Source: Planctomycetota bacterium (GTDB lineage: Bacteria; Planctomycetota; Planctomycetia; Pirellulales; Pirellulaceae). Taken from it: a DNA stretch of 38,728 nucleotides. This document shows positions 16,928 through 29,942 of this stretch, in pieces. How positions within the stretch are numbered: the stretch's first letter is position 1; every line of letters begins with the position of its first letter. The stretch spans positions 1 to 38,728 of the forward strand of contig JAJRWU010000096.1 in NCBI GenBank assembly GCA_024276655.1, given 5' to 3'. The position numbers were made by a program, and so were the translations under genes. The notes beneath the pieces are model-generated. The model did no database searches, was not told the origin of the DNA, and worked only from the letters and a program-made list of their open reading frames with translations.

Positions 16928-17794
16928 ATGCCCGACATTCCACAACTCGACTCCACGATTTCCGTGGTCACGCCCGAGAATATCTCGTTCGACTATCGGG
17001 TGGCCGGTCCGTTCCAACGGTTGCCGGCGTATCTGCTCGATTTGATGTTGGCGGCGGTGTTGTTTTTGTTCATCCAGATTGGGTTGTCGCTGACCTTGGG
17101 CTGGCTGGGGAGCGGGTTGGCTACGGGTGCTTCATTGATTATCTGGTTTGCGATTTTCTGGTTCTATGGCGGAATCTTCGAGACCTGGATGAACGGCCAA
17201 ACTCCGGGCAAGCGTCTGATGGGGCTGCGCGTCTTGACGGTCGACGGCACGCCGATCAACGGCATGCAAGCCGTGATGCGGAATGTGTTGCGATTGGCCG
17301 ATTCCATGCCTTTGCTGTCGTTGGAGGTTTTGCAAATTCCCGTTCCGGTGTACGTCATTCCGACCTTTGTGTTGGGCGTTGCCGTGATGGCCGTGAATCG
17401 GCGTTATCAACGCCTGGGCGATATTGTTTGCGGCACGTTGGTGGTGGTGGAGGAGCCGTCTTGGCGGCTGAGCGGCGTGGCCAAAATCGACGATTCCCGA
17501 GCCGCCCAACTGGCTGAATTCATTCCGCCGAACTTTCGCGTCAGCCGCACGCTGGCCCGCGCGCTGGCTTCGTACGTTGATCGGCGCCGCTTTTTGAGCC
17601 GAGAGCGGCGGTCGGAAATCGCCTCCCCGCTGGCCGACCCGCTGTTGCAGCAGTTTCAATTGCCCCCCGACACCAGCCCCGACCTGCTACTGTGTTCACT
17701 GTATTTGAAGACGTTTGTGTCCAACCGCGTTGAAGGCGCCCCGCGGAAACGCGCAGCGAACGACTCGCCGTTCACGAACGCCGAATCGGTTTAA
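16928..17794 (+). CDS. RDD family membrane protein
   Basis: A 288-residue protein beginning at ATG 16928. The RDD domain occupies about 20-185: FQRLPAYLLDLMLAAVLF with the Arg/Asp pair, a second hydrophobic hairpin, GQTPGKRLMGLRV, and YQRLGDIVCGTLVV near its end. The last ~100 residues are soluble and Arg-rich. RDD proteins are small membrane proteins, some linked to ion transport. It is the first gene of the eight-gene plus-strand operon, divergent from the uvrA-like gene, and such proteins often lie beside SpoIIM and MoxR/DUF58 genes. Confidence 0.9.
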   Translation: MPDIPQLDSTISVVTPENISFDYRVAGPFQRLPAYLLDLMLAAVLFLFIQIGLSLTLGWLGSGLATGASLIIWFAIFWFYGGIFETWMNGQTPGKRLMGLRVLTVDGTPINGMQAVMRNVLRLADSMPLLSLEVLQIPVPVYVIPTFVLGVAVMAVNRRYQRLGDIVCGTLVVVEEPSWRLSGVAKIDDSRAAQLAEFIPPNFRVSRTLARALASYVDRRRFLSRERRSEIASPLADPLLQQFQLPPDTSPDLLLCSLYLKTFVSNRVEGAPRKRAANDSPFTNAESV

Positions 17795-17804
17795 AAAGGA
17801 ACGA

Positions 17805-17847
17805 TCATACGGAAGGAAGGAACATGCGGAAGGAACATGCGGAAGGA
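17805..17847 (+). repeat. Tandem repeats of a Shine-Dalgarno-like word
   Basis: Three related 13-mers follow one another: TCATACGGAAGGA, then (after AGGA) ACATGCGGAAGGA twice. They fill the space between the RDD gene and the SpoIIM-like gene. Each contains AAGGA, and the last lies about 8 nt before the TTG start at 17856. Confidence 0.7.
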
Positions 17848-17855
17848 ACAGAGCC

Positions 17856-18827
17856 TTGAAAGTTTCTGAATTACTCGAACAGCGCCGCGAGAACTGGCAG
17901 GAGTTGGAGCGGCTCTGTCTGATCATGGAATCTCGCCGCCGAAAAAGTTTGGGCGCCGCCACGCTGAGCCGCTTTGCGGCCTTGTATCGGGCGGCCTGCG
18001 CCGATTTGGCCTTGGCCGACGCATACCAACTGCCGACGAATAATGTTCAATATCTGCATTTGTTGGTGGGCCGCGCACACAACCAACTGTATCGGAGCCG
18101 AAAATTCGCCTTCGGAAAGTGGATCGAGTCGTTGCTGGTGGACGTCCCCCAGCAGATTTTTCAAGACCGTTGCGTGCAGGCGGTCTTCTGCCTGTTTTGG
18201 GGCGTCTTCACACTGTCGGCGGTGTTCGCTTCCTCGGAAGAACTCTGGCCTGGGTTTGCCGAGAGCATTATGGGCGAAGACGCTATCAGCCAGATGGAGG
18301 AAAGTTTTTCCGAGCCGATCGATGGCCGCAATCCCAACCAGGATTTCGCCATGGCCGGGTTTTATATCCAACACAACACCGGTATCGGCCTGCGCTGTTT
18401 CGCCCTGGGGATTGCCGTCGTGCCGGGAATCTGGACCACCCTCTTCAACGCCGCTTCCTTAGGCGCCGCCTTCGGTTTCATGGCCCGGCCCGACGTGCCG
18501 CAGGGCGTGAACTTTTTTAACTTTGTCACCGCGCACGGGCCGTTTGAACTCACGGCCATTGTGCTTTCAGCCGGCGCCGGGCTGCGAATCGGCTTCTCTT
18601 GGATCCACACCCAAGGCTGGACCCGATCGGCCGCGCTGCGCATCGGCGCCCAAAACGCGATGCCCATCATGGGCGCCGCCATGGTGATGTTTTTTCTGGC
18701 CGCCTTGATCGAAGGCTTCGTATCTCCTTCCGGATTTCCGCTCTGGTCGAAACAGGTCGTGGGAATCGTTTCCAGTGGTATGCTGATGTTTCATTTTCTT
18801 GTGCTGGGTTACCCGCGGAGGGCGTGA
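17856..18827 (+). CDS. Stage II sporulation protein M-like membrane protein
   Basis: A 323-residue protein of the SpoIIM-like family. The first ~110 residues are soluble and helical (ELLEQRRENWQELERL, LSRFAALYRAACADLA). The rest holds about five membrane segments with the family stretch GFYIQHNTGIGLRCFALGI and FVTAHGPFELTAIVLSAGAGLRIG, including the conserved HG.FEL motif. The start TTG 17856 is chosen over an upstream overlap with the RDD gene because AAGGA precedes it at 8 nt. Not evidence of sporulation: this family is common in non-sporulating bacteria beside MoxR/DUF58 genes. Confidence 0.9.
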   Translation: MKVSELLEQRRENWQELERLCLIMESRRRKSLGAATLSRFAALYRAACADLALADAYQLPTNNVQYLHLLVGRAHNQLYRSRKFAFGKWIESLLVDVPQQIFQDRCVQAVFCLFWGVFTLSAVFASSEELWPGFAESIMGEDAISQMEESFSEPIDGRNPNQDFAMAGFYIQHNTGIGLRCFALGIAVVPGIWTTLFNAASLGAAFGFMARPDVPQGVNFFNFVTAHGPFELTAIVLSAGAGLRIGFSWIHTQGWTRSAALRIGAQNAMPIMGAAMVMFFLAALIEGFVSPSGFPLWSKQVVGIVSSGMLMFHFLVLGYPRRA

Positions 18828-18828
18828 A

Positions 18829-19716
18829 TTGCAATTAGACAAAACGAGAATTGCCATCCGGCAGCGCGGAGTCCTAGATATTCTAGATGTATCGCTGCAC
18901 ATGTTGTGGATTTACGGCAGGCCGATCGGGGCGACGTTTATTCTGGGCGCGGCGGCGTTCGCCCTGCTGAACCACGCCCTGATTGGCTGGATGGCCGACG
19001 TCGAATATGCGGAAGAAACGCCCTGGCGCTACCTCTGGTACATGAGTGTTCTGGTGTATGTTGAAGCGCCGTTGGCGGCGGCGTTTTGTACGGCGTATCT
19101 GGGCCGAGTCGTTTTTGAGCAGAGTTGCCGTTCCGGGGAAATCATGTCGGACGTGCTCGGCATGTGGGGCCATTTGTTGTGGGGTTTCGTCGTACTGCGG
19201 GGGATTGGCTTGGTCTGGCTGCTGGTGTTGTCGGTCGAACACACCGAAGACCCCGCCTACGGAGTGCTGGCTCTGCTGTTTTTCTTAATGTTGTTGGTGT
19301 TTGGCTTGCGGGCGTCGCGGCCTTATCTCGGCGAAGTCATTCTGCTGGAGCGAAACCCGCTGTTGCGATCTCGTTCTGGCGGCATGACGATCGGCGCTCG
19401 CAGTCAGATGCTGCACAATCCCAACTCCAGCGAGTTGATCGGACGGGGCCTGGGCGGGGCGCTTATTTGCACTCTTTTTTTGCTCGCGATCGTCGCCACG
19501 TGTTCGTTTGTTTCGGGTGTTTTTTTTGGCGCCTGGGATTTCGGCCCAATTTTGGTTCAGATTTTCATACCGGCTTCAATGTGGGGCATGGCTATGTTTT
19601 TCTGCGTGGTGCGTTATTTGAGTTACCTCGATTTGCGCATTCGCCAGGAAGGCTGGGAGGTTGAGTTATTGGTGCGGGCTGAAGCGAATCGTTTGCAAAC
19701 GAGGAATATCGGATGA
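18829..19716 (+). CDS. Hypothetical multi-pass membrane protein of the MoxR/DUF58 operon
   Basis: A 295-residue protein with about six hydrophobic segments and an LERNPLLRSRSG loop in the middle. I do not recognise a named domain. The start is TTG 18829: a strong GGAGG lies 7 nt upstream, within the end of the preceding gene, and the stop of that gene is one base away. Its last codons overlap the next gene (ATGA). Position and coupling suggest that it works with the SpoIIM-like and DUF4129 proteins in the membrane. Confidence 0.8.
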   Translation: MQLDKTRIAIRQRGVLDILDVSLHMLWIYGRPIGATFILGAAAFALLNHALIGWMADVEYAEETPWRYLWYMSVLVYVEAPLAAAFCTAYLGRVVFEQSCRSGEIMSDVLGMWGHLLWGFVVLRGIGLVWLLVLSVEHTEDPAYGVLALLFFLMLLVFGLRASRPYLGEVILLERNPLLRSRSGGMTIGARSQMLHNPNSSELIGRGLGGALICTLFLLAIVATCSFVSGVFFGAWDFGPILVQIFIPASMWGMAMFFCVVRYLSYLDLRIRQEGWEVELLVRAEANRLQTRNIG

Positions 19717-20465
19717 GGCGCCTGGTGCTATTTCTCCTGCTGACGCGAGCATTCTGCGGGGGCGTGTACGCGCTGGCCGATGAGAACATCGAAGCGGGCA
19801 GGCGCGCGCTGCAAGAGGCGGGCGATTTCCCCTGGTACGACGCCGAAGCCGACCAACTGCGCCGGGTTCCGTTGAAGCCTATCGCGGAGCCGCAAGCCAA
19901 CTACAGCGAGTGGGAGGCGCCCGCCGGCCCCAATTGGCTGGCGAATTTTTTCGCCCAGTTAGCGCCGTTCATAAGGTGGTTTGTCTGGGCGCTGATCGTG
20001 GCCGCGGCCGTGGGTTTGCTGGCGTTGTTGGCGTATGCCTTGACGCGCCGTCAGGGCGGCGTCTCTCCGGGAGGGGCGGGCGTCGACGTCTTGGATCTGC
20101 GGCGTGAAGAAGAAAGCATCGAGAGGCTGCCGTTTCAATTGCGCCAACCGAAAGCTGATTTACTGTCCGAAATTCGCCGGCAGTACGAAGCGGGAAAGTA
20201 CAAGGAAGCGATTGTCTATTTGTTTAGCTACCAATTGGTTTTGCTTGATCGGTATCACCACATTCATCTCGCCAAGGGCAAAACCAACCGCCAATATTTG
20301 CGTGAAATGGGGGCGGCGGGCGAACTTCGCCGCTTGCTGCGCGGTACGATGTCTGCGTTTGAAGACGTCTTTTTCGGCGACCATTCGCTCGATCGTCAAG
20401 GATTCGAGGCCTGTTGGAAGTCGCTCGACGAGTTTCAACGTCTGACCGCCGAGGGCTCGCCATGA
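19713..20465 (+). CDS. DUF4129-type membrane protein
   Basis: A 250-residue protein: signal peptide at 1-21, a short exported part with FPWYDAEADQLRRVPL, one membrane helix at about 86-110, and a cytoplasmic helical domain at about 148-240 (YEAGKYKEAIVYLFSYQLVL, LDRYHHIHLAKGKTNRQYLRE) matching the DUF4129 pattern. Homologues commonly lie beside MoxR and DUF58 genes, sometimes fused to transglutaminase-like proteins; none is present here. ATG 19713 overlaps the previous stop by four bases and the next start overlaps its own stop, so translation is coupled on both sides. Confidence 0.85.
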   Translation: MRRLVLFLLLTRAFCGGVYALADENIEAGRRALQEAGDFPWYDAEADQLRRVPLKPIAEPQANYSEWEAPAGPNWLANFFAQLAPFIRWFVWALIVAAAVGLLALLAYALTRRQGGVSPGGAGVDVLDLRREEESIERLPFQLRQPKADLLSEIRRQYEAGKYKEAIVYLFSYQLVLLDRYHHIHLAKGKTNRQYLREMGAAGELRRLLRGTMSAFEDVFFGDHSLDRQGFEACWKSLDEFQRLTAEGSP

Positions 20466-21619
20466 CCAGCCAATCGTCGAACGGCTCACTCTTGCAGTGG
20501 CTGCGCGCGCAACGGCCCATGCTGGTGTTCGCGGCGTTGGCGGGCGCTGTCGGCTTGTTGTTTTACGCCCTGGTGTTTGCTCGACATAAATCGGCCGACG
20601 ATATCAGCGTGGTGTACGGCCAGCGCAATTCCGGCGATGGGCGGCTGAGCATCAATGGCACGGCGGTGCTGGCCGAAATGTTCGAAGACGCCGGGTTCCG
20701 CGTCAGCAGTTGGAACCGGCTCTCGCCAAAACTCCACCGGGCCAAGGTGATTATCTGGACGCCCGACGACTTCGCCGTTCCCACGCCCGAACAACGGCAG
20801 TGGTTGGAAGACTGGTTGTCTGAAGACTCTTACCGCCGGTTGGTTTACATCGGCCGAGATTACGACGCCGAACTCGATTACTGGCGAAAAACCGGCGCGC
20901 GGGCGCCGGTCGAGCAGTCGGCCGAAATCGACCGCCGAATCGCGAGAAAAAAGGCCGCACAAGATAACCCGGAACGAACTTTTTCCGTTTCACCCAAAGC
21001 CGCTCCGTATGACGAAACCGATGCCGAGTGGTTTACCAAGGAGCAAGAACCGAACAGCATGAAATTGGGCCGCCGGCCAAGCAAGCTTTCCGGCCCCTGG
21101 AGCGAAGGCGTTCACGCCGAAATCGCGGAACTGCGCCTCAACACATTGTTGCGAGCGCCCGAAAACGAAGAGCCCGATCCTGCCGCCCAAAAAAATAAAT
21201 ACGAATATGACTTTGGCTACGACTACGATTTCGAGGTCGATCCCGGCCCCCTATTCGCTGAAGTGCTGCTCCGCGTCGACGACGACGAATTCGTCACTCG
21301 GCTAACGCGAGACGATTGGTGGGAAGGCGAAATTTTAGTGGTGGCCAACGGGTCGTTCCTGTTGAATATGCCGCTGGTGAACTCCGAGCACCGAAAGCTG
21401 GCCGGAAAACTGATCGACGAGTGCGGTGAACCCGACAAACTCGTGTTCCTCGAAAGCGGCGTTGGCGGGCCGCCGATCCGAAAAAACGACGACTCGAATC
21501 GTCTGACCGGCCTGGAAATGCTGTTTGTCGCGCCGCTGAACGTTATTCTGCTGCATTTTCTCGCGATGGGCGTCGTGTTGCTGGTTTGCTATTTTCCCAT
21601 TTTTGGCCGCCCTCGCTAA
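20462..21619 (+). CDS. DUF4350-type membrane-anchored protein
   Basis: A 385-residue protein with a membrane helix at about 20-40 and a second at about 355-380. The region 62-105 (RLSINGTAVLAEMFEDAGFR then SSWNRLSPKLHRAKVIIW) matches the DUF4350 pattern of a Rossmann-like domain that follows the first helix. Acidic linkers rich in Asp/Tyr lie at about 230-265. It ends PIFGRPR at TAA 21617-21619. The same frame continues directly with a TTG and a further 139 codons, which look like the cytoplasmic tail normally found on this protein, so the gene may be interrupted. Confidence 0.85.
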   Translation: MTSQSSNGSLLQWLRAQRPMLVFAALAGAVGLLFYALVFARHKSADDISVVYGQRNSGDGRLSINGTAVLAEMFEDAGFRVSSWNRLSPKLHRAKVIIWTPDDFAVPTPEQRQWLEDWLSEDSYRRLVYIGRDYDAELDYWRKTGARAPVEQSAEIDRRIARKKAAQDNPERTFSVSPKAAPYDETDAEWFTKEQEPNSMKLGRRPSKLSGPWSEGVHAEIAELRLNTLLRAPENEEPDPAAQKNKYEYDFGYDYDFEVDPGPLFAEVLLRVDDDEFVTRLTRDDWWEGEILVVANGSFLLNMPLVNSEHRKLAGKLIDECGEPDKLVFLESGVGGPPIRKNDDSNRLTGLEMLFVAPLNVILLHFLAMGVVLLVCYFPIFGRPR

Positions 21620-22039
21620 TTGAAGCCGGAAAACGTTTCCGATTTCTCCAGACATATCGAGGCCATGGGCGAACAACTGGAAGCCATCGGGGAACTGGGT
21701 TACTGCGTGGGGAGGTTACGGTACTATAACGAACATGTCCGACAGGAAACCTCTTCTTCCACGCGCAGCGCGCCGGCCAATGTCAAGCGGCGCCCGCTGC
21801 ACATTCGAATCACGACTCCAATCGCGCCCGGCGCTCACGACCGCCGCGTGGTCGAGGATTTCGGCAAGCAGGTGCATGAGCGGGGCATCGGTCAGGTTCT
21901 GCACACCGCCTTCGACGCCGACGGAATCGAGATCATCCTTTCAACGCCCGCCGCCGCCGAGACGCTGGTGGAAATCCAAACCTTACTGGAAGAATTTCAG
22001 CTCGTCGACAACAGCATTGTTTCCGAACTGGCCCGTTAA
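21620..22039 (+). CDS. In-frame follow-on ORF after the DUF4350 gene
   Basis: A 139-codon frame that starts with TTG immediately after the TAA of the DUF4350 gene and in the same frame. Its first ~40 residues (VSDFSRHIEAMGEQLEAIG, YCVGRLRYYNEHV) look like the cytoplasmic C-terminal tail of DUF4350 proteins. After a Ser/Arg linker the second half (HIRITTPIAPGAHDRRVVED to the end) is a compact alpha/beta unit I do not recognise. No good Shine-Dalgarno sequence precedes the TTG. It could be a readthrough extension, a separate coupled protein (perhaps from ATG 21665), or a remnant of a fused gene. Confidence 0.55.
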   Translation: MKPENVSDFSRHIEAMGEQLEAIGELGYCVGRLRYYNEHVRQETSSSTRSAPANVKRRPLHIRITTPIAPGAHDRRVVEDFGKQVHERGIGQVLHTAFDADGIEIILSTPAAAETLVEIQTLLEEFQLVDNSIVSELAR

Positions 22040-22056
22040 CCATTTAGGCCCACAAC

Positions 22057-23481
22057 ATGAGCACGCCCCCAGGTTCCGAGTATCCTTCATCGCAGGCAAT
22101 TGAATTTGAGTGCCGGAAGTGCCGACGCAAATTAAAAGTGCCGACTTCGGCCACCGGGCGAAATGCGCGCTGTCCCGACTGCGGCGGGGTGCAAACCGTG
22201 CAAACGCCGGGCTCCATGGCGCCTCCGCCGCCCATGCATTTGGGGAGTGAAACGCCGGCGTCCTCGGGCTTGAGCCCCATGGAAATCGATCTGACAACGC
22301 CCGCGCCCGCGGGAGAGAACCGCCCCAAAATTCACTCCCTCGATATGCAGCCGCCCAGTTCGCCCAGCATCGCGACCGAGCCGAATAAGCCCGCAAAAGG
22401 CCTCACTCCGCTGCCGTTTTCCGAACCCCCGCAGGTTAAACCCGTTGCGGCTGAAAACCGGTCGGCGGCCACAACGCCCGATCAACCTTTGGTGTTGGAG
22501 CCAATCTCGGAAACCCGCCCCACCGCCAGCACGCCCACCGGAAAATTGTTCAAAAAAATCATCGACGAAATCGGCAAGATTTACGTCGGCCAGGAAGAGC
22601 TGGTGTTGGGAACGTTGGTGGCCTTGTTTTCCAGCGGCCACGTATTGATCGAGAGCGTGCCCGGCTTGGGAAAAACATTATTTGTCAGAACGCTCGGCAA
22701 GGTGTTGGGTTGCGAATTCGGCCGCATTCAATTCACCGCCGATTTGATGCCGTCGGACATCACCGGAGCTCCCATTTTCGACATGAAAACTCAAGACTTT
22801 CGCTTCCGCCCCGGACCCGTCTTCACACAACTGCTTCTGGCCGACGAAATCAATCGTTCGCCCGCCAAAACGCATGCCGCGCTGCTCGAAATCATGCAGG
22901 AGTATCATGTCACGATCGACGGCCAGAGCCACACCCTGACGCGGCCATTCCTGGTGCTCGCCACACAAAACCCGGTGGAGTCGGAAGGCACGTACAACCT
23001 GCCCGAGGCGCAACTCGATCGCTTCATGTTCAAGCTCGTGGCGAACTATCCCGGAGAGGCGGAAGAAGCCAAAATTCTTTCGTTGCATAGTCGGCAAATC
23101 GACGTCGAGGAACAACTCAAGCAAGATATCAACACGCTTACTTCGCCGGAGGAAATCCTCCGCCTCACGCAAGCCAACGCCAATATTCGCATTGATGATC
23201 GGCTGATCGATTACATCAACAAGCTGGTGCGGCTGACAAGATCTTGGCCGCAAGTCCACCTGGGCGCTTCGCCGCGAGCGGGAATCGCACTGATGCAAGG
23301 CGCCCGCACCCTGGCCGCCTTCTCGGGAAGAGACTACGCCACGCCCGACGACGTCCGAGAAATTTCGTTGCCCGCCTTGCGCCACCGCGTGGTGCTCACC
23401 GCCGAAGCGGAAGTCGAGGGTTACTCGGTGGATCAGCTCCTCACCGAAATGATTCGCTCGGTGGAGGTCCCCCGAATTTGA
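22057..23481 (+). CDS. MoxR-type AAA+ ATPase with N-terminal zinc ribbon
   Basis: A 474-residue protein. Residues 155-474 are a complete MoxR ATPase: VGQEE before the Walker A loop V201-PGLGKT207, DLMPSDITG, Walker B LLLADE (259-264), sensor ATQNP (302-306), LPEAQLDRFMF, and the C-terminal lid with SPRAGIALMQGAR. The first 45 residues form a zinc-ribbon-like unit with C19-x2-C22 and C39-x2-C42, joined by a ~110-residue Pro-rich linker. MoxR proteins usually begin near residue 155, so this addition is unusual. MoxR ATPases work as remodelling chaperones with VWA/DUF58 partners; the DUF58 gene follows with a 4-nt overlap. Confidence 0.95.
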   Translation: MSTPPGSEYPSSQAIEFECRKCRRKLKVPTSATGRNARCPDCGGVQTVQTPGSMAPPPPMHLGSETPASSGLSPMEIDLTTPAPAGENRPKIHSLDMQPPSSPSIATEPNKPAKGLTPLPFSEPPQVKPVAAENRSAATTPDQPLVLEPISETRPTASTPTGKLFKKIIDEIGKIYVGQEELVLGTLVALFSSGHVLIESVPGLGKTLFVRTLGKVLGCEFGRIQFTADLMPSDITGAPIFDMKTQDFRFRPGPVFTQLLLADEINRSPAKTHAALLEIMQEYHVTIDGQSHTLTRPFLVLATQNPVESEGTYNLPEAQLDRFMFKLVANYPGEAEEAKILSLHSRQIDVEEQLKQDINTLTSPEEILRLTQANANIRIDDRLIDYINKLVRLTRSWPQVHLGASPRAGIALMQGARTLAAFSGRDYATPDDVREISLPALRHRVVLTAEAEVEGYSVDQLLTEMIRSVEVPRI

Positions 23482-24887
23482 ACGCCCTCCAGGAATTCCT
23501 CACTAGCTCCAGAGCGGCTTGGTTTAACTTGGCGCTCTACACGGCGCCGTTGCTGGCGCTGGTGTATTGGAAGCGAATTTACCCCAACCTTCCGCTGGTG
23601 TTGGCGATGCTCGCGCCATGCCTGTTGAGCTTCGGCGTGGTCGTGCGGGCCGACATCATTCCCCTCGTATTGGCGTTAGACGCGGCGGTGCTTTTGGTCG
23701 CGGCGTTCGATCTACTCACGTTGCCGAAAAAAACGGCCTTCGCGGCGCGACGCCAAGTATCGCGAACCGCGTCGCTGGGAAAGCGGCACCCGGTCGAGAT
23801 TATGTTCACCAATTCCTCGACCCGTGCCTACGAGCTTTGGGTTCGCGACGATGCGCCCCAGGAATTCGAACGCCACCCCGAGGAATTTCATTTGCGTTTG
23901 CCAGCGCGGAGTCGGAGGTCGTTGCATTATGAAGCCACTTCGCACCGCCGAGGCGCGTTTCACTTGGAAACCGTTTACGTACGCGCGCGGAGCCGAGTCG
24001 GCCTTTGGAAGCGGTTTTTCGAATATCCGGCCGAGTCGACGATCAACGTCTATCCCGACATGAAACAGATGGGCGAATACGCGATTCTAGCGCGCACCAA
24101 CCGCTTGAGCCTGATGGGTCTGCGGCGCACGCGAAAGATCGGCCAAGACAACGAGTTCGAACGCCTGCGAGACTACACCCTGGACGACAATTACAAGCAT
24201 ATTGATTGGCGGGCCACGGCGAGAAGGAACCGCGTCACGGTCAAGGATTTCCAAGCCAACCAGAGCCAACGCGTGATTTTCATGGTCGATTGCGGCCGCA
24301 TGATGACCAACGAAGCCGATGGCATCAGTCTGCTCGACCACGCCTTCAACGCCGTATTGATGCTCAGTTTTGTCGCGCTGCGGCAAGGAGATTCCGTCGG
24401 CCAGATCTGTTTCTCCGACCAAATTCACAGCTTCACGCCGCCGCGCGGCGGCATGCGTCAGATGAATCAATTGTTGCATGCCTCTTTCGATCGGTTTCCC
24501 CGGTTGGTGGAGTCGCGGTACGATGAAGCCTTTCTGTATTTGGGTTCGCACTGCCGCAAACGAAGCTTGGTGGTGCTGATCTCGAACGTGATCGACGAAG
24601 TCAACTCGAACCAATTGGAGCAATATTTATCGAAGCTTGTGGGTCGCCATTTGCCGATTGGCGTTCTGTTGCGTGACCGAGCCCTGTTCGAAATCGCGGA
24701 ACAACCGAATCCTACTGAAAGCCAACTTTATCGCGCCGCGGCGGCGGCGGAAGTTCTCACCTGGCGCCATCAAGTGATCACCGACCTTACGCAAAAGGGC
24801 GTCATGGCGCTGGATGTGTTTCCTGATGAGTTGACCGCCAAACTGGTGAATCAGTACTTGGAAATCAAGGCCCGGCATCTCCTCTAG
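23478..24887 (+). CDS. DUF58 protein, VWA-like, MoxR partner
   Basis: A 469-residue protein. Two membrane segments at about 17-80 are followed by an exported or peripheral beta-rich part (88-200) and the DUF58 core: FERLRDYTLDDNYKHIDWRA at about 227-246, then a von Willebrand-type fold beginning VIFMVDCGRMM (266-276). The MIDAS-like DxSxS motif is reduced to DCGRM. The start is TTG 23478, overlapping the MoxR stop as TTGA, with GGAGG about 10 nt upstream; the frame is open to 23244 but that part is a shadow of MoxR. It ends the operon before the palindromic terminator. Confidence 0.9.
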   Translation: MNALQEFLTSSRAAWFNLALYTAPLLALVYWKRIYPNLPLVLAMLAPCLLSFGVVVRADIIPLVLALDAAVLLVAAFDLLTLPKKTAFAARRQVSRTASLGKRHPVEIMFTNSSTRAYELWVRDDAPQEFERHPEEFHLRLPARSRRSLHYEATSHRRGAFHLETVYVRARSRVGLWKRFFEYPAESTINVYPDMKQMGEYAILARTNRLSLMGLRRTRKIGQDNEFERLRDYTLDDNYKHIDWRATARRNRVTVKDFQANQSQRVIFMVDCGRMMTNEADGISLLDHAFNAVLMLSFVALRQGDSVGQICFSDQIHSFTPPRGGMRQMNQLLHASFDRFPRLVESRYDEAFLYLGSHCRKRSLVVLISNVIDEVNSNQLEQYLSKLVGRHLPIGVLLRDRALFEIAEQPNPTESQLYRAAAAAEVLTWRHQVITDLTQKGVMALDVFPDELTAKLVNQYLEIKARHLL

Positions 24888-24985: not shown

Positions 24986-27900
24986 CTAAGGCGAGCGCGG
25001 CTCCAGCTTCAAGCGGGCGACCGACGGCTTGCCGCCGCGCAGCCAATGCACACTCACGATTTCGCCAGGATCGTGTGAGCTGAGAATGCGGTAAATGTCG
25101 CTCAAGACGCGCGTTTCCACGCCGTCCAGCCGCGTGATCAAATCATCGGCGCGGAGGCCCGCCTTCGCCGCCGCCGACCGCGGCGCGACCATCGTCACCA
25201 TACAGCCCGCCACGGTTGTTTCGATCGTGACGCCGAATGTCGGGCCGGCGCCGGAGGGCCAGGCTCCCCAAGTTTCGCCCTCTCGTAATCGGGCCAGCAC
25301 GGCGCGGCTGACCCGCTGGTAAAGAAACCCTCCGGCCGAATGCCGGCGACTGCGAATGCCAACCACCCGCGAATCGCGATCAAGCAGCGCTCCGCCCGCC
25401 TGCCATGGGGCGGTGTTGGAGGCGGTGGCTTTGGCGCCGTCGATCCAGATTTCGTTTTTCGTGGCTTCACGAATGCCGACAATCGGCGAGGCGAGGTTCA
25501 GCTTTCCCTGGGCGTCGGCCTGGAATGAAAAGTCGACATACAGTTGGTCGTCGGCGATTTTTCCGATACCGGCAATCGCCACATGCGGCTGTTGGTCCTG
25601 GCCATTGAGGAGGATATTGAGGCGGATCAGGCCCAGATCACCGTCGCGCGAGATAGCAACAACCCGCCCGTTCGCCGTGCGGCCATCGGGCAACACAGCT
25701 TCGACCTTTGCCGCCGATTTTCCCAGCACATGCCCGGCGGTCAACACGTCGCCGGCGGCGGAAATGAGAATGCCACTGGCCGGGCGTCCGCCGATACGAA
25801 GCGATACGGCGGTCGCGGCGCCCTTTTGCAACACCTCTTGGGCGAGCAAACGACGCGCCGCCCGGTTCGTGATTGCCGGGTCTGGGGCGCTGAGGAGTTG
25901 GAAATCATCGAGTTGGTTGGCGAAGTGCATGTGATCGAGCCAGAGCGATTCCCCACCCCTGGCTTCGACGACCAAACCGGTGAGGTCGGTCTCTCCCAGA
26001 TCGGCGAAGAGGTCGCGCGTGGCGACGATCCAATGGTCGGGCAACTCCAACCGCCAAAGAGTTATTTCGCCTTTTCGATTCGGCCCGCCCTTGCCGGCTC
26101 GATAAAAAGTTTTGCCCTTCGGCGCCGCTGCGGTTGTCATTCGCCAACGCACGCCGCCCCCGCCCGACTTCCGGTAGGCAAACCGCAGGTAGCGAAACTC
26201 ACCCACGTCGGGCGTCTGGCGAATCTTGCATGGCGAGGAAAAGACGATTTTGCAAACGCCGTTTTTCTGGAGTTGCAACGCGGATTTACCGTGAAAACGA
26301 ATGTCTTGGCGCCAAGTGTGCGTTTCAGGGGCAAGCAGCGCGGCCTGTGTGTTGTCGCCGGGCTCTTCCAAAATAGAATACAGGTAGGGCGGGTTTTTGA
26401 ACAACGCCAGACCGCGCCACGCCAAGGCGACGCCCGCCGGCGCCTCGATTTCGAGCTGCACTTCCTCACGGTTTTGAAAGGCTTCCAGCGATACGGCGAA
26501 ATGGTTTGCTTTTGCTCGCAACGGCTGCGGGGGGATGTTCCACTTGGCGATGATTTCGCCTTCCGCCCGCACCAGCAAATTCGTGGCGGCGGCAAGCGGC
26601 GATTCGATCTGCAACACCAGCCAACGTTGTTCGCTTGGCCGCACGCGGCGCGTGAGTTTCAGCGGTTCGTTTTCGGCGTACGGCAGCAGATGGAAGCCTC
26701 CGGCTTGATCGGAAACGGCCCGCCAGGCAATCGCGGCGGGGTTCGCCAAGCTCCAGCCGCGCCAGGCGGGCACGGTTTCGATGCGGCGCAGGTCGACCTG
26801 CCTTTTAAGTTCAGAGCGGTTGAGCAACAACGTGGGGTCCAACCAATTGACGATGTCGCGAATATCGAAGGGGTCGGCGTCTTGCGGCGCGGCGGGCGGC
26901 GCGGGGTCGATCTTCAACACCAACCGCCGGGCTTGCCGGTCGGTTCGAGGGAGCGGCGTTCGAGCGATGTTCGAGCTCGCCCGACCGCCGAGCAACACGC
27001 CGGTGTCGAAGAGCAACTTCTCGGGAGCAGAGGCAAAATAGCCAAGGGCTTGCACGCAACCCCCGTTGGCGGCGAGACGATCGAAGCCGACGCGCGTGGA
27101 AAAAGCGTCGGCGCAGGCCGGCAAATCGAAATGCAACTCCGTGGCGCCGAACACGCCGAACCCCGAGGCGTATTCTTTTCCGTCGGTAAACAGCCGGCCG
27201 CCGCTCACATTGCGGTTGGTTCGCGCCGGCCATTTGAGATCGCCCAGCAACGAGGTCTGTTTTTCCCGCACGGGGGAGAATAGAGAAAGCGGCGGCGCCA
27301 CCGCCGGAAAATACAGTCGCTCCGCGATATTGGCATGCGGAATCGGCAGGCTGTCTAGACTCCAAGCAGGCTGCAAATAGTGTAGCCAATTGACGTCCTG
27401 GCGAGGATCTCCCAGGGAGGAAGCCGCAAAACGGGCGGTTGAACTTGTGGCGATGAGGCCGTCGCGGGTGTGGATCTGGAGCAACGGCGTGACGGCGTCG
27501 GGCGAACGCGCCGCGAGCGTGTCGAAATACGCCCGCCACTGGTTCTGTTGGGGGAAATGGAGTTCGGCGATGTCGTCAAAGGCAACTTGCCGGGTTCCGA
27601 CGTCCAGCAGCAGGACGACTTTCCCGTCGGCCCATCGCAACGACCGATACGGTAGCGAACCGCCTTCCCGAAAGTAGAGCCGCGCGGGCGTGTAACGTTT
27701 TGCGCCGCCCGCCTTCAGACCCCGCCCTTGCCAGACAATGCGCCGCACATATTTCGAGAGCACGCGAACCGACTTGTGGTTCCTCAGCAAACGCAATTCG
27801 CAGGCCGGCGCCACGATAAAATGAGCGGGCGTCGGCGCCAGCGGCTGCTCGGAGGCGGCTTGCAATGCAGTCACGACGCCGGGGAGCCGGTCGCCGAGGC

Positions 27901-28261
27901 GAGTTTCGATAAAAGCCGGCGGCGATTTTTGCTCGGGTTGTTGCCGATCTCGCAGCCAACGCAATGTTCGCTCCGCCGTGAACAGGGGCGTGTTGTCGAG
28001 CCGAGGCGCGAGGGCGGCGGAATGCCAGTCGTGGAGTTGTTGCCCTTCGAGGCGGGCGCCATCGGAAAACTCCGCCAAATAACGACCTCGCACCTGGGCC
28101 GGCGTTTGTTGTGCGGTGGCGGCCAAGGCGCCAGCAAAAGCGGCCGTCGCGAACCCCGTCAAGAAGACAAACATCATGCCATTTGCCCAGACGGACGCCT
28201 TGCTCTCGATTTCGGGCGATGGGGCAACGTGTTTCACAATCGAAAAATATCTTTTTGCCAA
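24986..28261 (-). CDS. Large secreted NPCBM / trypsin-like pseudoprotease / PDZ protein
   Basis: A 1091-residue exported protein. A long basic n-region precedes the hydrophobic core at 29-48, which is why I keep the TTG 28261 start rather than the ATG at 28177. An NPCBM-like sugar-binding region lies at about 350-430 (GKEYASGFGVFGATELHFDL, VGFDRLAANGG). The last third holds a trypsin/HtrA-like domain: ASGILISAAGDVLTAGHVLG with His844, RDGDLGLIRL with Asp875, but QAGGALL with Ala955 where the GNSGGPL nucleophile Ser is expected. A PDZ domain ends the protein. It is therefore probably non-proteolytic, perhaps a binding or scaffold protein at the cell surface. Neighbours are unrelated. Confidence 0.8.
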   Translation of the reverse strand: MAKRYFSIVKHVAPSPEIESKASVWANGMMFVFLTGFATAAFAGALAATAQQTPAQVRGRYLAEFSDGARLEGQQLHDWHSAALAPRLDNTPLFTAERTLRWLRDRQQPEQKSPPAFIETRLGDRLPGVVTALQAASEQPLAPTPAHFIVAPACELRLLRNHKSVRVLSKYVRRIVWQGRGLKAGGAKRYTPARLYFREGGSLPYRSLRWADGKVVLLLDVGTRQVAFDDIAELHFPQQNQWRAYFDTLAARSPDAVTPLLQIHTRDGLIATSSTARFAASSLGDPRQDVNWLHYLQPAWSLDSLPIPHANIAERLYFPAVAPPLSLFSPVREKQTSLLGDLKWPARTNRNVSGGRLFTDGKEYASGFGVFGATELHFDLPACADAFSTRVGFDRLAANGGCVQALGYFASAPEKLLFDTGVLLGGRASSNIARTPLPRTDRQARRLVLKIDPAPPAAPQDADPFDIRDIVNWLDPTLLLNRSELKRQVDLRRIETVPAWRGWSLANPAAIAWRAVSDQAGGFHLLPYAENEPLKLTRRVRPSEQRWLVLQIESPLAAATNLLVRAEGEIIAKWNIPPQPLRAKANHFAVSLEAFQNREEVQLEIEAPAGVALAWRGLALFKNPPYLYSILEEPGDNTQAALLAPETHTWRQDIRFHGKSALQLQKNGVCKIVFSSPCKIRQTPDVGEFRYLRFAYRKSGGGGVRWRMTTAAAPKGKTFYRAGKGGPNRKGEITLWRLELPDHWIVATRDLFADLGETDLTGLVVEARGGESLWLDHMHFANQLDDFQLLSAPDPAITNRAARRLLAQEVLQKGAATAVSLRIGGRPASGILISAAGDVLTAGHVLGKSAAKVEAVLPDGRTANGRVVAISRDGDLGLIRLNILLNGQDQQPHVAIAGIGKIADDQLYVDFSFQADAQGKLNLASPIVGIREATKNEIWIDGAKATASNTAPWQAGGALLDRDSRVVGIRSRRHSAGGFLYQRVSRAVLARLREGETWGAWPSGAGPTFGVTIETTVAGCMVTMVAPRSAAAKAGLRADDLITRLDGVETRVLSDIYRILSSHDPGEIVSVHWLRGGKPSVARLKLEPRSP

Positions 28262-28439
28262 AGAGAGTAAGATAAGCGATCCATCCTAGCAGACGCTCGG
28301 TCGGCGGTCTTGCCTAGCGAGGGAAATCCTTCATAATACGCCGCAGTCGGCGAATGAATGAGAGTCGACCATGCGTTCAATGGCGCGTTGTTTTTCGCGG
28401 CGGCGTTTCCCCCGGTTCTGTTGGAAGTGGAACAATCTT

Positions 28440-29342
28440 ATGAGTTTGTTGGTAGTCGGCTCCGTGGCGTTGGATAGCGTTCGCACCCCAACCGACCAGC
28501 GCGATGACGTGCTTGGCGGCTCGGCCGTCTATTTTTCCTATGCCGCCAGTTATTTTGGGCCGACCCATTTGGTCGGCGTGGTGGGCGACGACTGGCCCGC
28601 CGAACATACGCAACTGTTGCGAAATCGGAAAATCGACACGCAAGGATTGCAAACCGTGTCTGGCGCGAAAACTTTCCGCTGGACCGGGAAATATCTGTCG
28701 AACATGAACGACCGCGAAACGCTGGAGGTGCATCTCAACGTTTTCGGCGATTTCGACCCCGTGCTCCCCGACGACTTTCGCCGGGCCGATTTCCTCTTTC
28801 TGGCCAACGGTTCGCCCAAGGTCCAGCGAAAAGTGCTGGACCAAATGCAAGGCCCCAAACTCACCGTGTGCGATACGATGGATCTCTGGATTCGCGAAGA
28901 GCACGATGAACTGCTCGACTTGCTGACGCGCATCGACGGGCTGGTTCTCAACGACAGCGAAGCCCAGCTCCTGACCGACGATTCCAACCTCGTTCGCGCG
29001 GGGCACAAAGTGCGCGAGATGGGGCCCAAGTTTGTCGTGATCAAAAAGGGCGAACACGGAGCCATGTTTTTCTCGGAACACGAAACCTATGTGCTGCCCG
29101 CCTTCCCGACGGAGCGCGTCGTCGACCCCACCGGCGCTGGCGATAGTTTTGCCGGAGGGATGATGGGTTACCTGGCCGAACAAGATAGTTTCGAGCCGGA
29201 AGTTCTCAAACGCGCCATGGGCTATGGAGTGGTCGTGGCCAGTTTTAACGTCGAAGACTTCAGCCTCGACCGCATGTTGCAGGTCGAACGAGCCGATCTG
29301 GACAAGCGGCTGGCGGAATACCAACGCATGTTGTCTTTCTAA
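28440..29342 (+). CDS. PfkB/ribokinase family sugar kinase
   Basis: A 300-residue cytoplasmic kinase of the PfkB family. N-terminal LLVVGSVALDSV; GGSA at 26-29, which usually contacts the substrate; NDSEAQLLT at 171-179; VIKKGEHGAMF at 200-210; and the C-terminal signature DPTGAGDSFAGG (229-240) with catalytic Asp235. ATG 28440 is preferred over the open frame from 28371, since it begins with the family sequence; a GGAA word lies about 8 nt upstream. The substrate (a sugar or nucleoside) cannot be named. It shares a divergent promoter region with the large secreted protein and is followed by thpR. Confidence 0.9.
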   Translation: MSLLVVGSVALDSVRTPTDQRDDVLGGSAVYFSYAASYFGPTHLVGVVGDDWPAEHTQLLRNRKIDTQGLQTVSGAKTFRWTGKYLSNMNDRETLEVHLNVFGDFDPVLPDDFRRADFLFLANGSPKVQRKVLDQMQGPKLTVCDTMDLWIREEHDELLDLLTRIDGLVLNDSEAQLLTDDSNLVRAGHKVREMGPKFVVIKKGEHGAMFFSEHETYVLPAFPTERVVDPTGAGDSFAGGMMGYLAEQDSFEPEVLKRAMGYGVVVASFNVEDFSLDRMLQVERADLDKRLAEYQRMLSF

Positions 29343-29366
29343 TGCCGTTTGCGGAAGAACGTTGCC

Positions 29367-29942
29367 ATGCTGCCGGTGCGCACCTTTGTCGCGATTGATA
29401 TGTCGCCGAGCGTCAACCGTGGGTTGGCCGCGCTGCTCGAACAAATGCAGAGCAGCGGCGCCGACGCACAGTGGATACGCCCGGAGAACGTCCACCTTAC
29501 GTTGAGCTTCCTGGGCGATGTCGACCCTCTCCATATTATCGACGTCTGTTCCGCCGTTTCGGCCGCGGCGAGTGAACATGACGCCTTTCGTTTGAGTTGC
29601 TGCGGCGTGGGAGCGTTCCCCGATGCGAGCCGGCCGCGCGTGGTGTGGGTCGGCATGGACGAAGGTCGCGAGGCGCTCTGTTCGCTGCAAGCGGCCATCG
29701 CGACGGCTCTTGATGAAATCGGCTACCCCAAGGAGGGGCGGCGCTACCAACCGCATATCACGTTGGGACGCGCCAAACGCGGCGCCGATGAGCACGCGCT
29801 TTCGCAAACCATCGAACAGTATTCTCGGCGCCCCGTGGGCGAAACGATGGTTGACGAAGTGTTGGTGATGTCGAGCCAATTAGAACGCGGCGGTCCGCGC
29901 TACGCCATTCTCGGCCGCGCCCCGTTGCGTTGCGATGAATAG
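29367..29942 (+). CDS. thpR: RNA 2',3'-cyclic phosphodiesterase
   Basis: A 191-residue member of the 2H phosphoesterase family (LigT/ThpR), which opens 2',3'-cyclic phosphate ends of RNA. Both HxTx motifs are present: H43-LTL and H130-ITL. The N-terminus RTFVAIDMS and the stretch WIRPENVHLTLSFLGDV are typical. The start at ATG 29367 is chosen because GGAAGAA lies about 8 nt upstream; a TTG at 29349 is also in frame. Length is normal. It follows the PfkB kinase by 24 nt. Confidence 0.92.
   Translation: MLPVRTFVAIDMSPSVNRGLAALLEQMQSSGADAQWIRPENVHLTLSFLGDVDPLHIIDVCSAVSAAASEHDAFRLSCCGVGAFPDASRPRVVWVGMDEGREALCSLQAAIATALDEIGYPKEGRRYQPHITLGRAKRGADEHALSQTIEQYSRRPVGETMVDEVLVMSSQLERGGPRYAILGRAPLRCDE

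Follow-up and report, generated by a model that had tools for sequence, protein, structure and literature searches.

What is left for a protease to do once its catalytic residues have gone, when the fold has been kept and joined to carbohydrate-binding domains? The question is raised by a gene at positions 24,986 to 28,261 of a 38,728 nucleotide stretch of DNA from a Planctomycetota bacterium of the Pirellulaceae (GenBank assembly GCA_024276655.1, contig JAJRWU010000096.1), which was analysed whole and is here called the window; the source genome is 5.96 Mb. The gene encodes two domains of carbohydrate-binding module (CBM) type followed by a trypsin-like domain of HtrA type, in which Ala replaces the nucleophile, and a PDZ domain. 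We consider it an evenly balanced proposition that the product is a protease-derived, exported adaptor that binds glycan and peptide and is perhaps chaperone-like, acting as a holdase.

Domain layout and active site

The gene and its parts were placed as follows.

24986..28261, minus strand: whole open reading frame (ORF), 1091 aa, TTG start, full-length homologues found
28112..28174, minus strand: hydrophobic, signal-peptide-like helix, residues 30-50 (helix in the AlphaFold2 (AF2) model, of low confidence there)
27302..28084, minus strand: beta-rich N-terminal region, residues 60-320 (AF2 predicted local distance difference test score, pLDDT, mostly >85)
26816..27304, minus strand: NPCBM domain of CBM51 fold, residues 320-482 (Pfam, VIA-align, profile matches to 8pvs and 2vmg)
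25874..26392, minus strand: second CBM-like beta-sandwich, residues 624-796 (VIA-align)
25268..25861, minus strand: trypsin-like (HtrA-type) pseudoprotease domain, residues 801-998 (Pfam, DegQ match, VIA-align)
25730..25732, minus strand: codon of His844, the triad His (sequence and alignment)
25637..25639, minus strand: codon of Asp875, the triad Asp (sequence and alignment)
25397..25405, minus strand: Trp953-Gln954-Ala955 (TGG CAG GCG), replacing Gly193-x-Ser195 (alignment)
25004..25240, minus strand: PDZ domain, residues 1008-1086 (PDZ_2 in Pfam, E 3.5e-10)

An earlier note on this stretch had read the ORF as an HtrA-like fold without its catalytic machinery, and His844, Asp875 and Ala955 are found at the residues it named. 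Ala955 aligns with the catalytic Ser both of DegQ and of ten stand-alone planctomycete HtrA relatives, to whose GDSGGP positions 193 and 195 were set (L1-loop numbers follow chymotrypsin). Position 193, the oxyanion-hole Gly of active enzymes, is occupied by Trp953, a point absent from the earlier note. At the GHPGG-type stretch, too, family members differ from the stand-alone relatives (the one from the same genome has GHPNG). No alternative Ser was found in register, as the L1 stretch reads APWQAGGALL, and a single mutation or sequencing error was rejected because the Ala is common to homologues at 93, 40 and 34% identity and Gly193 is lost too. From its sequence, catalytic inactivity of the window protein is well supported. 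In MamO, a residue other than Gly at 193 is described as disfavouring the active form of the L1 loop, and Trp192 as diverting bound peptide (PMC4794232); on that analogy, Ala955 and Trp953 in combination would make proteolysis very unlikely.

The fold is HtrA-like by both profile and structure. Trypsin_2 matches residues 828-969 (Pfam, E 2.7e-11), the best Protein Data Bank sequence match is DegQ 4a8a (E 2e-10), and in VIA-align 2 the catalytic domain of HtrA1 (3tjo) aligns over 172 residues (Z 21.7, root-mean-square deviation (rmsd) 2.1), with residues 801-1090, protease and PDZ together, matching HhoA 5t69 (Z 21.8, rmsd 7.2 over two domains). The window protein scores 55.3 bits against TIGR02037 (Do-family proteases), below the curated NCBIfam cut-off of 416.2, and 14.3 bits against the MamO model NF040961, below its cut-off of 800. 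The PDZ domain, which the earlier note had described as kept, retains the carboxylate loop F-G-V (within P-T-F-G-V).

The NPCBM-like domain proposed for the first half of the protein was likewise recovered: PF08305 matches residues 345-432 (E 1.4e-6, 28.8 bits against a gathering cut-off of 23.9), and residues 320-482 align with the CBM51 module 7jrm (Z 20.9, rmsd 1.7, 140 aligned). Between it and the pseudoprotease sits the second CBM-like domain, which the earlier note had not listed; its closest matches are CBM8 7t7y (Z 13.9, rmsd 2.8, 141 aligned) and CBM29 entries (Z 11 to 12). Residues 60-320 are hardly covered by VIA-align rows. A likeness of the N-terminal model to Cry toxin was taken as spurious (Foldseek TM scores near 0.1), and profile comparison gave no signal of internal repeats in residues 60-322, nor of the mid segment, the NPCBM and the second CBM being homologous to one another. 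No metallopeptidase is among the Pfam matches of the ORF. The AF2 model of the whole protein (28 aligned sequences) has a mean pLDDT of 83.5 and a predicted template modelling score (pTM) of 0.67, and that of residues 31-800 (49 aligned sequences) has 89.0 and 0.85. A pair of ATG codons at ~28177 is an alternative possible start. A homologue of 92% identity over the protein is present in the metagenome-assembled genome Planctomycetaceae bacterium SZUA-33.

Catalytic loss across the family

Homologues were sought with a full-length profile (A2) built from six family sequences, none with an intact site, and distant active fusions may be under-sampled by it. Matches were obtained in 94 of 396 genomes of the order at 1e-40, many through stand-alone HtrA genes, in 24 of 392 genomes of the phylum at 1e-70 and in 37 of 241 genomes of the taxonomic family at 1e-100, the three genome sets overlapping. 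From the fetched loci, 33 members were drawn that have a trypsin-like region or what remains of one, one per genome and with the window protein included, representing 18 genera (hand count); homologous places without a fetched locus, for example G046:C258, G035:C89, G024:C38 and G888:C20, lie outside this set. Three members (L111, L112 and L043) are fragments without a complete N-terminus, and L054 (G106), which has no trypsin-profile match, was placed by alignment with its genus.

The pair Gly193 plus Ser195 is complete in none of the 33 members and in all ten stand-alone relatives, a comparison that is no probability, the 33 rows being mutually related. Singly, His is retained in 21, Asp in 19, Ser195 in four and Gly193 in one, with an uncertain L1 alignment in the very divergent rows (g60, G009, G020, G821 and G553). 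The residues that replace the nucleophile vary (A, V, I, L, P, G, T, R and Q). GNSGGP in orthologues, which the earlier note had set against its reading as the mark of a single mutation, is found in none of the 33, and the loss is family-wide. The conservation of the Ala, a check that it had suggested, holds in part: the residue is common to G001, G032 and G019 (the three homologues of graded identity above) and to G807 and G789, but Ser stands in four of the 33, including G818. That catalytic loss is common to the family examined, rather than a point mutation, is supported by these sequences.

The ten stand-alone relatives, picked because the window protein matched them across both trypsin and PDZ and not by active site, are intact at each catalytic position. 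An HtrA-like gene matched in its PDZ only and without GDSGG at the usual place (L022_1) was dropped before the count, and its counterpart in the window genome (L129) and the inactive-type L124 and L126 are outside the ten, so the ten-of-ten figure covers close stand-alone relatives and not all planctomycete HtrA-like genes.

A tree of the region without its active-site columns splits the 33 members from the ten stand-alone HtrAs with support 100/100, and within it, partly unresolved (22 of 40 inner branches starred, 11 open), the minimum number of changes is four for Ser/non-Ser, four for His and five for Asp. G032 (Ala) and G818 (Ser), of one genus (g32), are sisters in this tree. The simplest reading is repeated loss of Ser, all outgroup rows being Ser, although gain is not distinguishable from loss here.

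Possible function and alternative readings

If the protein is the adaptor proposed above, the N-terminal helix would direct its export; the N-termini of homologues are also signal-peptide-like (judged by eye, no signal-peptide predictor used). The two CBM-type sandwiches would then hold it on carbohydrate or glycoprotein. With Ala955 the nucleophile is removed and the protease-PDZ unit would no longer cut, and Trp953 at 193 should block the active conformation of the oxyanion hole, while the remaining peptide cleft and the PDZ domain could capture an extended peptide or a protein C-terminus. The whole would act as a glycan-anchored adaptor or holdase. A review, in the part of its text available, reports that DegP S210A reduces aggregates and that inactive HtrA variants relieve stress phenotypes (PMC11642142). 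Taken together, such chaperone-like effects, the MamO-like L1 loop and the kept PDZ loop make binding the most likely role, and the different ways in which relatives have lost catalysis suggest that the unit now probably binds rather than cuts. Among the 23 members that bear a PDZ domain, the carboxylate loop is hydrophobic-G-hydrophobic in 21 (eye count from the tally, Ala and Cys being included among the hydrophobic residues); ten of the 33 lack this loop. The occurrence of the NPCBM scaffold with a mostly disarmed metzincin-like domain and the selection on the trypsin part in genus g18, both described below, also speak for the proposal.

Several observations weigh against this proposal. In genus g60 (nine members) His, Asp, Ser and PDZ are all lost, and a further 20 fetched homologues gave no match to the trypsin profile, some of their loci ending at contig edges; the pseudoprotease is thus not essential to the core role of the family. 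In the pair formed by the window genome (G000) and G001, the ratio of nonsynonymous to synonymous substitution rates (dN/dS) is 0.46 in the trypsin part against 0.18-0.28 in the other domains. The NPCBM domain has Phe371 where the GIGTHA stretch of CBM51 type has its His. Residues 943-951, just before the active-site L1 loop, fall below pLDDT 50, so the conformation of that loop is not readable from the AF2 model. Across 21 neighbourhoods no partner is suggested beyond a PfkB-type kinase, and inactive-type HtrA genes exist in the same genome without an NPCBM scaffold, so that loss need not be tied to the scaffold. The envelope binding protein envisaged by the earlier note is borne out in part: the inactive HtrA fold, the PDZ, the NPCBM and the signal-peptide-like N-terminus agree with it, and recognition by the protease fold, possibly of glycan-bearing partners, is plausible in outline as a suggestion.

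The inactive domain could instead be a regulator, entering mixed oligomers with an active HtrA, or being bound by one, and steering it in a somewhat MamO-like manner. The genome would offer it company, as eight of its 12 Trypsin_2 places keep Gly193 and Ser195 (the window protein is among the four that do not, as is L129, which did not align at that place), and one cluster of three genes on contig C326 is mixed. According to the available text on MamO, that protein promotes MamE-dependent proteolysis through its transporter domain, but activation of MamE needs this TauE domain and the MamO protease domain is insufficient (PMC4794232). A regulator would also leave the CBM-rich N-terminus unexplained, and no HtrA-like gene is present among the window neighbours scanned (nine ORFs by Pfam, six by NCBIfam; other neighbourhoods were not searched for HtrA genes). 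We regard this role as unlikely.

We think it improbable, too, that the protease-PDZ unit is a decaying passenger while the CBM part does the work. The degenerate region of g60, the failure to find it in many homologues, the dN/dS of 0.46 and the variation of active-site changes by lineage are what would be expected of such a relic. Against it, 23 members still show both a recognisable trypsin-like region and a PDZ, and in 22 of them the frame is open; the exception, the G069 homologue, has an in-frame TAG (L043:2509-2511) upstream of this region and after the CBM part. Most of the unit is modelled by AF2 with high confidence, and the triad His and Asp persist in the numbers given above. In genus g18 the constraint is clear, with a dN/dS of 0.10-0.14 for the trypsin part in four pairs against 0.08-0.09 for the N-terminal part, and the trypsin part there is under purifying selection. 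The pair G788/G787 gives 0.115, near saturation at a dS of 1.8, and for G032/G818 the trypsin part is saturated. Constraint looks weaker, on few changes, within the genus of the window protein, which fits relaxed constraint.

That a few members have kept protease activity and the window protein is a single copy inactivated recently is highly unlikely: His, Asp and Ser are all present in two of the 33 (G388 and G818) and g32 holds both Ser and Ala, but the G388 and G818 proteins have a residue other than Gly at 193 (Ile, Trp) and are without the GHPGG-type stretch of the stand-alone relatives, and Ala is spread over five genera (g1, g32, g19, g420 and g416). A metal-binding pseudoprotease like MamO is hardly credible, for although the L1-loop changes resemble that protein and His precedes the triad Asp in five of the 33, at what is by comparison the site of one of its two metal ligands in the available account (PMC4794232), the window protein has Gly874 there and no His in helix 986-993 (taken as the counterpart of MamO helix 2), so the di-His motif is lacking.

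Putative NPCBM sugar site and the metzincin-like fusion

For the glycan-binding half of the adaptor proposal, the position of Phe371 was compared across the family. Of the 47 rows that have a residue at this position, 22 carry His, as do the CBM51 and 8pvs sequences; by architecture it is found in eight of 24 rows with the pseudo-HtrA and in 14 of 23 lacking it, and the independent rows are too few for a conclusion. Given Phe371, sugar binding by the window copy is uncertain from its sequence.

In family f17, nine of the proteins homologous to the NPCBM part have in common an N-terminal domain that carries a metzincin-like zinc motif (a call based on this motif and, in L060 and L061 out of three scanned, on Peptidase_M10 or M12 matches below threshold).

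L060, L061, L093, L130, L131, L135-L137 and L140: metzincin-like NPCBM homologues

The motif reads HELGHWLGAVH in G212 and G392 (one genus) and HEFAHWLGAFD in G152. In the other six of the nine (G381, G379, G119, G216, G124 and G052, of which G119, G216 and G124 are one genus) it reads HQLGH, HSLGH or HSFGH and the catalytic Glu is gone; a tenth long f17 member, G237, was unalignable at the motif and left uncounted. G379 (genome 79% complete, 4% contamination) carries both the HtrA-type and the metzincin-like fusion.

A broader, tentative proposal, which we find somewhat doubtful, is that a planctomycete family of exported NPCBM/CBM proteins acquired two or more unrelated peptidase folds, with an HtrA protease-PDZ unit added C-terminally and a metzincin N-terminally, and that each of these was disarmed more than once, so that peptidases aimed at glycoproteins became glycan-guided peptide receptors. 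If true, the formation of pseudoproteases would be a recurrent route in this family and not an accident of one gene. Within one phylum the family offers a series of loss stages (His, Asp and Ser without Gly193; His and Asp only; all lost; PDZ lost), and as these are tied to domains of carbohydrate-binding type, a role of the protease fold after catalysis could be tested by comparison. The metzincin-like branch, with intact and disarmed motifs, would serve as a natural control.

Genomic neighbourhood and other HtrA genes

The gene has a divergent neighbour.

28371..29342, plus strand: PfkB-type sugar kinase (Pfam)

A LigT-like gene is also divergent, the two spanning 28371-29942. A functional link with either was considered and is not claimed, each being present in six of 21 neighbourhoods, window included; the 21 contain homologues without the protease part and short contigs, and in L074 the LigT gene lies ~5 kb away. 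On the other side, a plus-strand run (SpoIIM, a weakly CopD-like gene, DUF4129, DUF4350, MoxR AAA and DUF58; 17715-24887) abuts the pseudoprotease gene, and its order from SpoIIM to DUF58 is the same in the sister genome G001.

Elsewhere in the window genome, three adjoining HtrA-like genes (L121, L126 and L124; G000:C326:29990-33265) comprise one active-type and two inactive-type. At the nucleophile the first has GNSGGP, the second Ala and the third Tyr; the second and third are without the triad His, and the third has a long extra C-terminal region. At L116:1315-3528 (G000:C31), and likewise at L022 (G021), the gene after an active-type HtrA gene is also HtrA-like; its PDZ seems to lie within the trypsin domain, and it has a late DCGGP instead of GDSGGP.

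Comparison with known systems

With DegP, DegQ, DegS and HhoA (HtrA, Do family) the window protein shares the fold and the domain order, trypsin then PDZ; it differs in the nucleophile, the oxyanion Gly, the GHPGG-type stretch and the added N-terminal CBM-type domains. A description of an architecture joining NPCBM/CBM to an HtrA pseudoprotease was not found in the open literature searched. In one survey of 91 prokaryotic genomes, the 966 serine proteases counted from five families include 42 putatively inactive homologues, and a CBM_5_12 module is noted on one trypsin from Streptomyces; the part of its text available mentions neither an NPCBM fusion nor an HtrA-PDZ pseudoprotease fusion nor a planctomycete family (PMC2605481). 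NPCBM has elsewhere been proposed as an invader sensor, set beside signalling or peptidase effector domains in bacteria (PMC8195603). As far as the available text goes, that proposal concerns intracellular systems with Death-like domains, whereas the window protein looks exported and has no such domain in Pfam.

The O-glycopeptidases AMUC_1438 and ZmpB resemble the family in carrying NPCBM/CBM51 on a peptidase scaffold. AMUC_1438, in the accessible part of its description, is a metzincin with NPCBM (PMC9513282), and by that description the metzincin-like homologues of f17 follow its order, metzincin then NPCBM. The window protein differs from both enzymes in having an inactive-type HtrA domain and no zinc peptidase.

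MamO is the only bacterial HtrA-type pseudoprotease with a described function that was met in the literature searched. Its own features, according to the text available, are a Thr nucleophile, Trp192, Glu193, a metal-binding di-His pair and a transporter domain of TauE type (PMC4794232); in the window protein the nucleophile position is Ala and position 193 is Trp, the di-His motif is missing, and CBM-type domains and a PDZ are present. On the same partial account, what the two have in common is a Trypsin_2 fold of the HtrA branch, a degenerate triad, a residue other than Gly at 193 and a Trp in the L1 loop.

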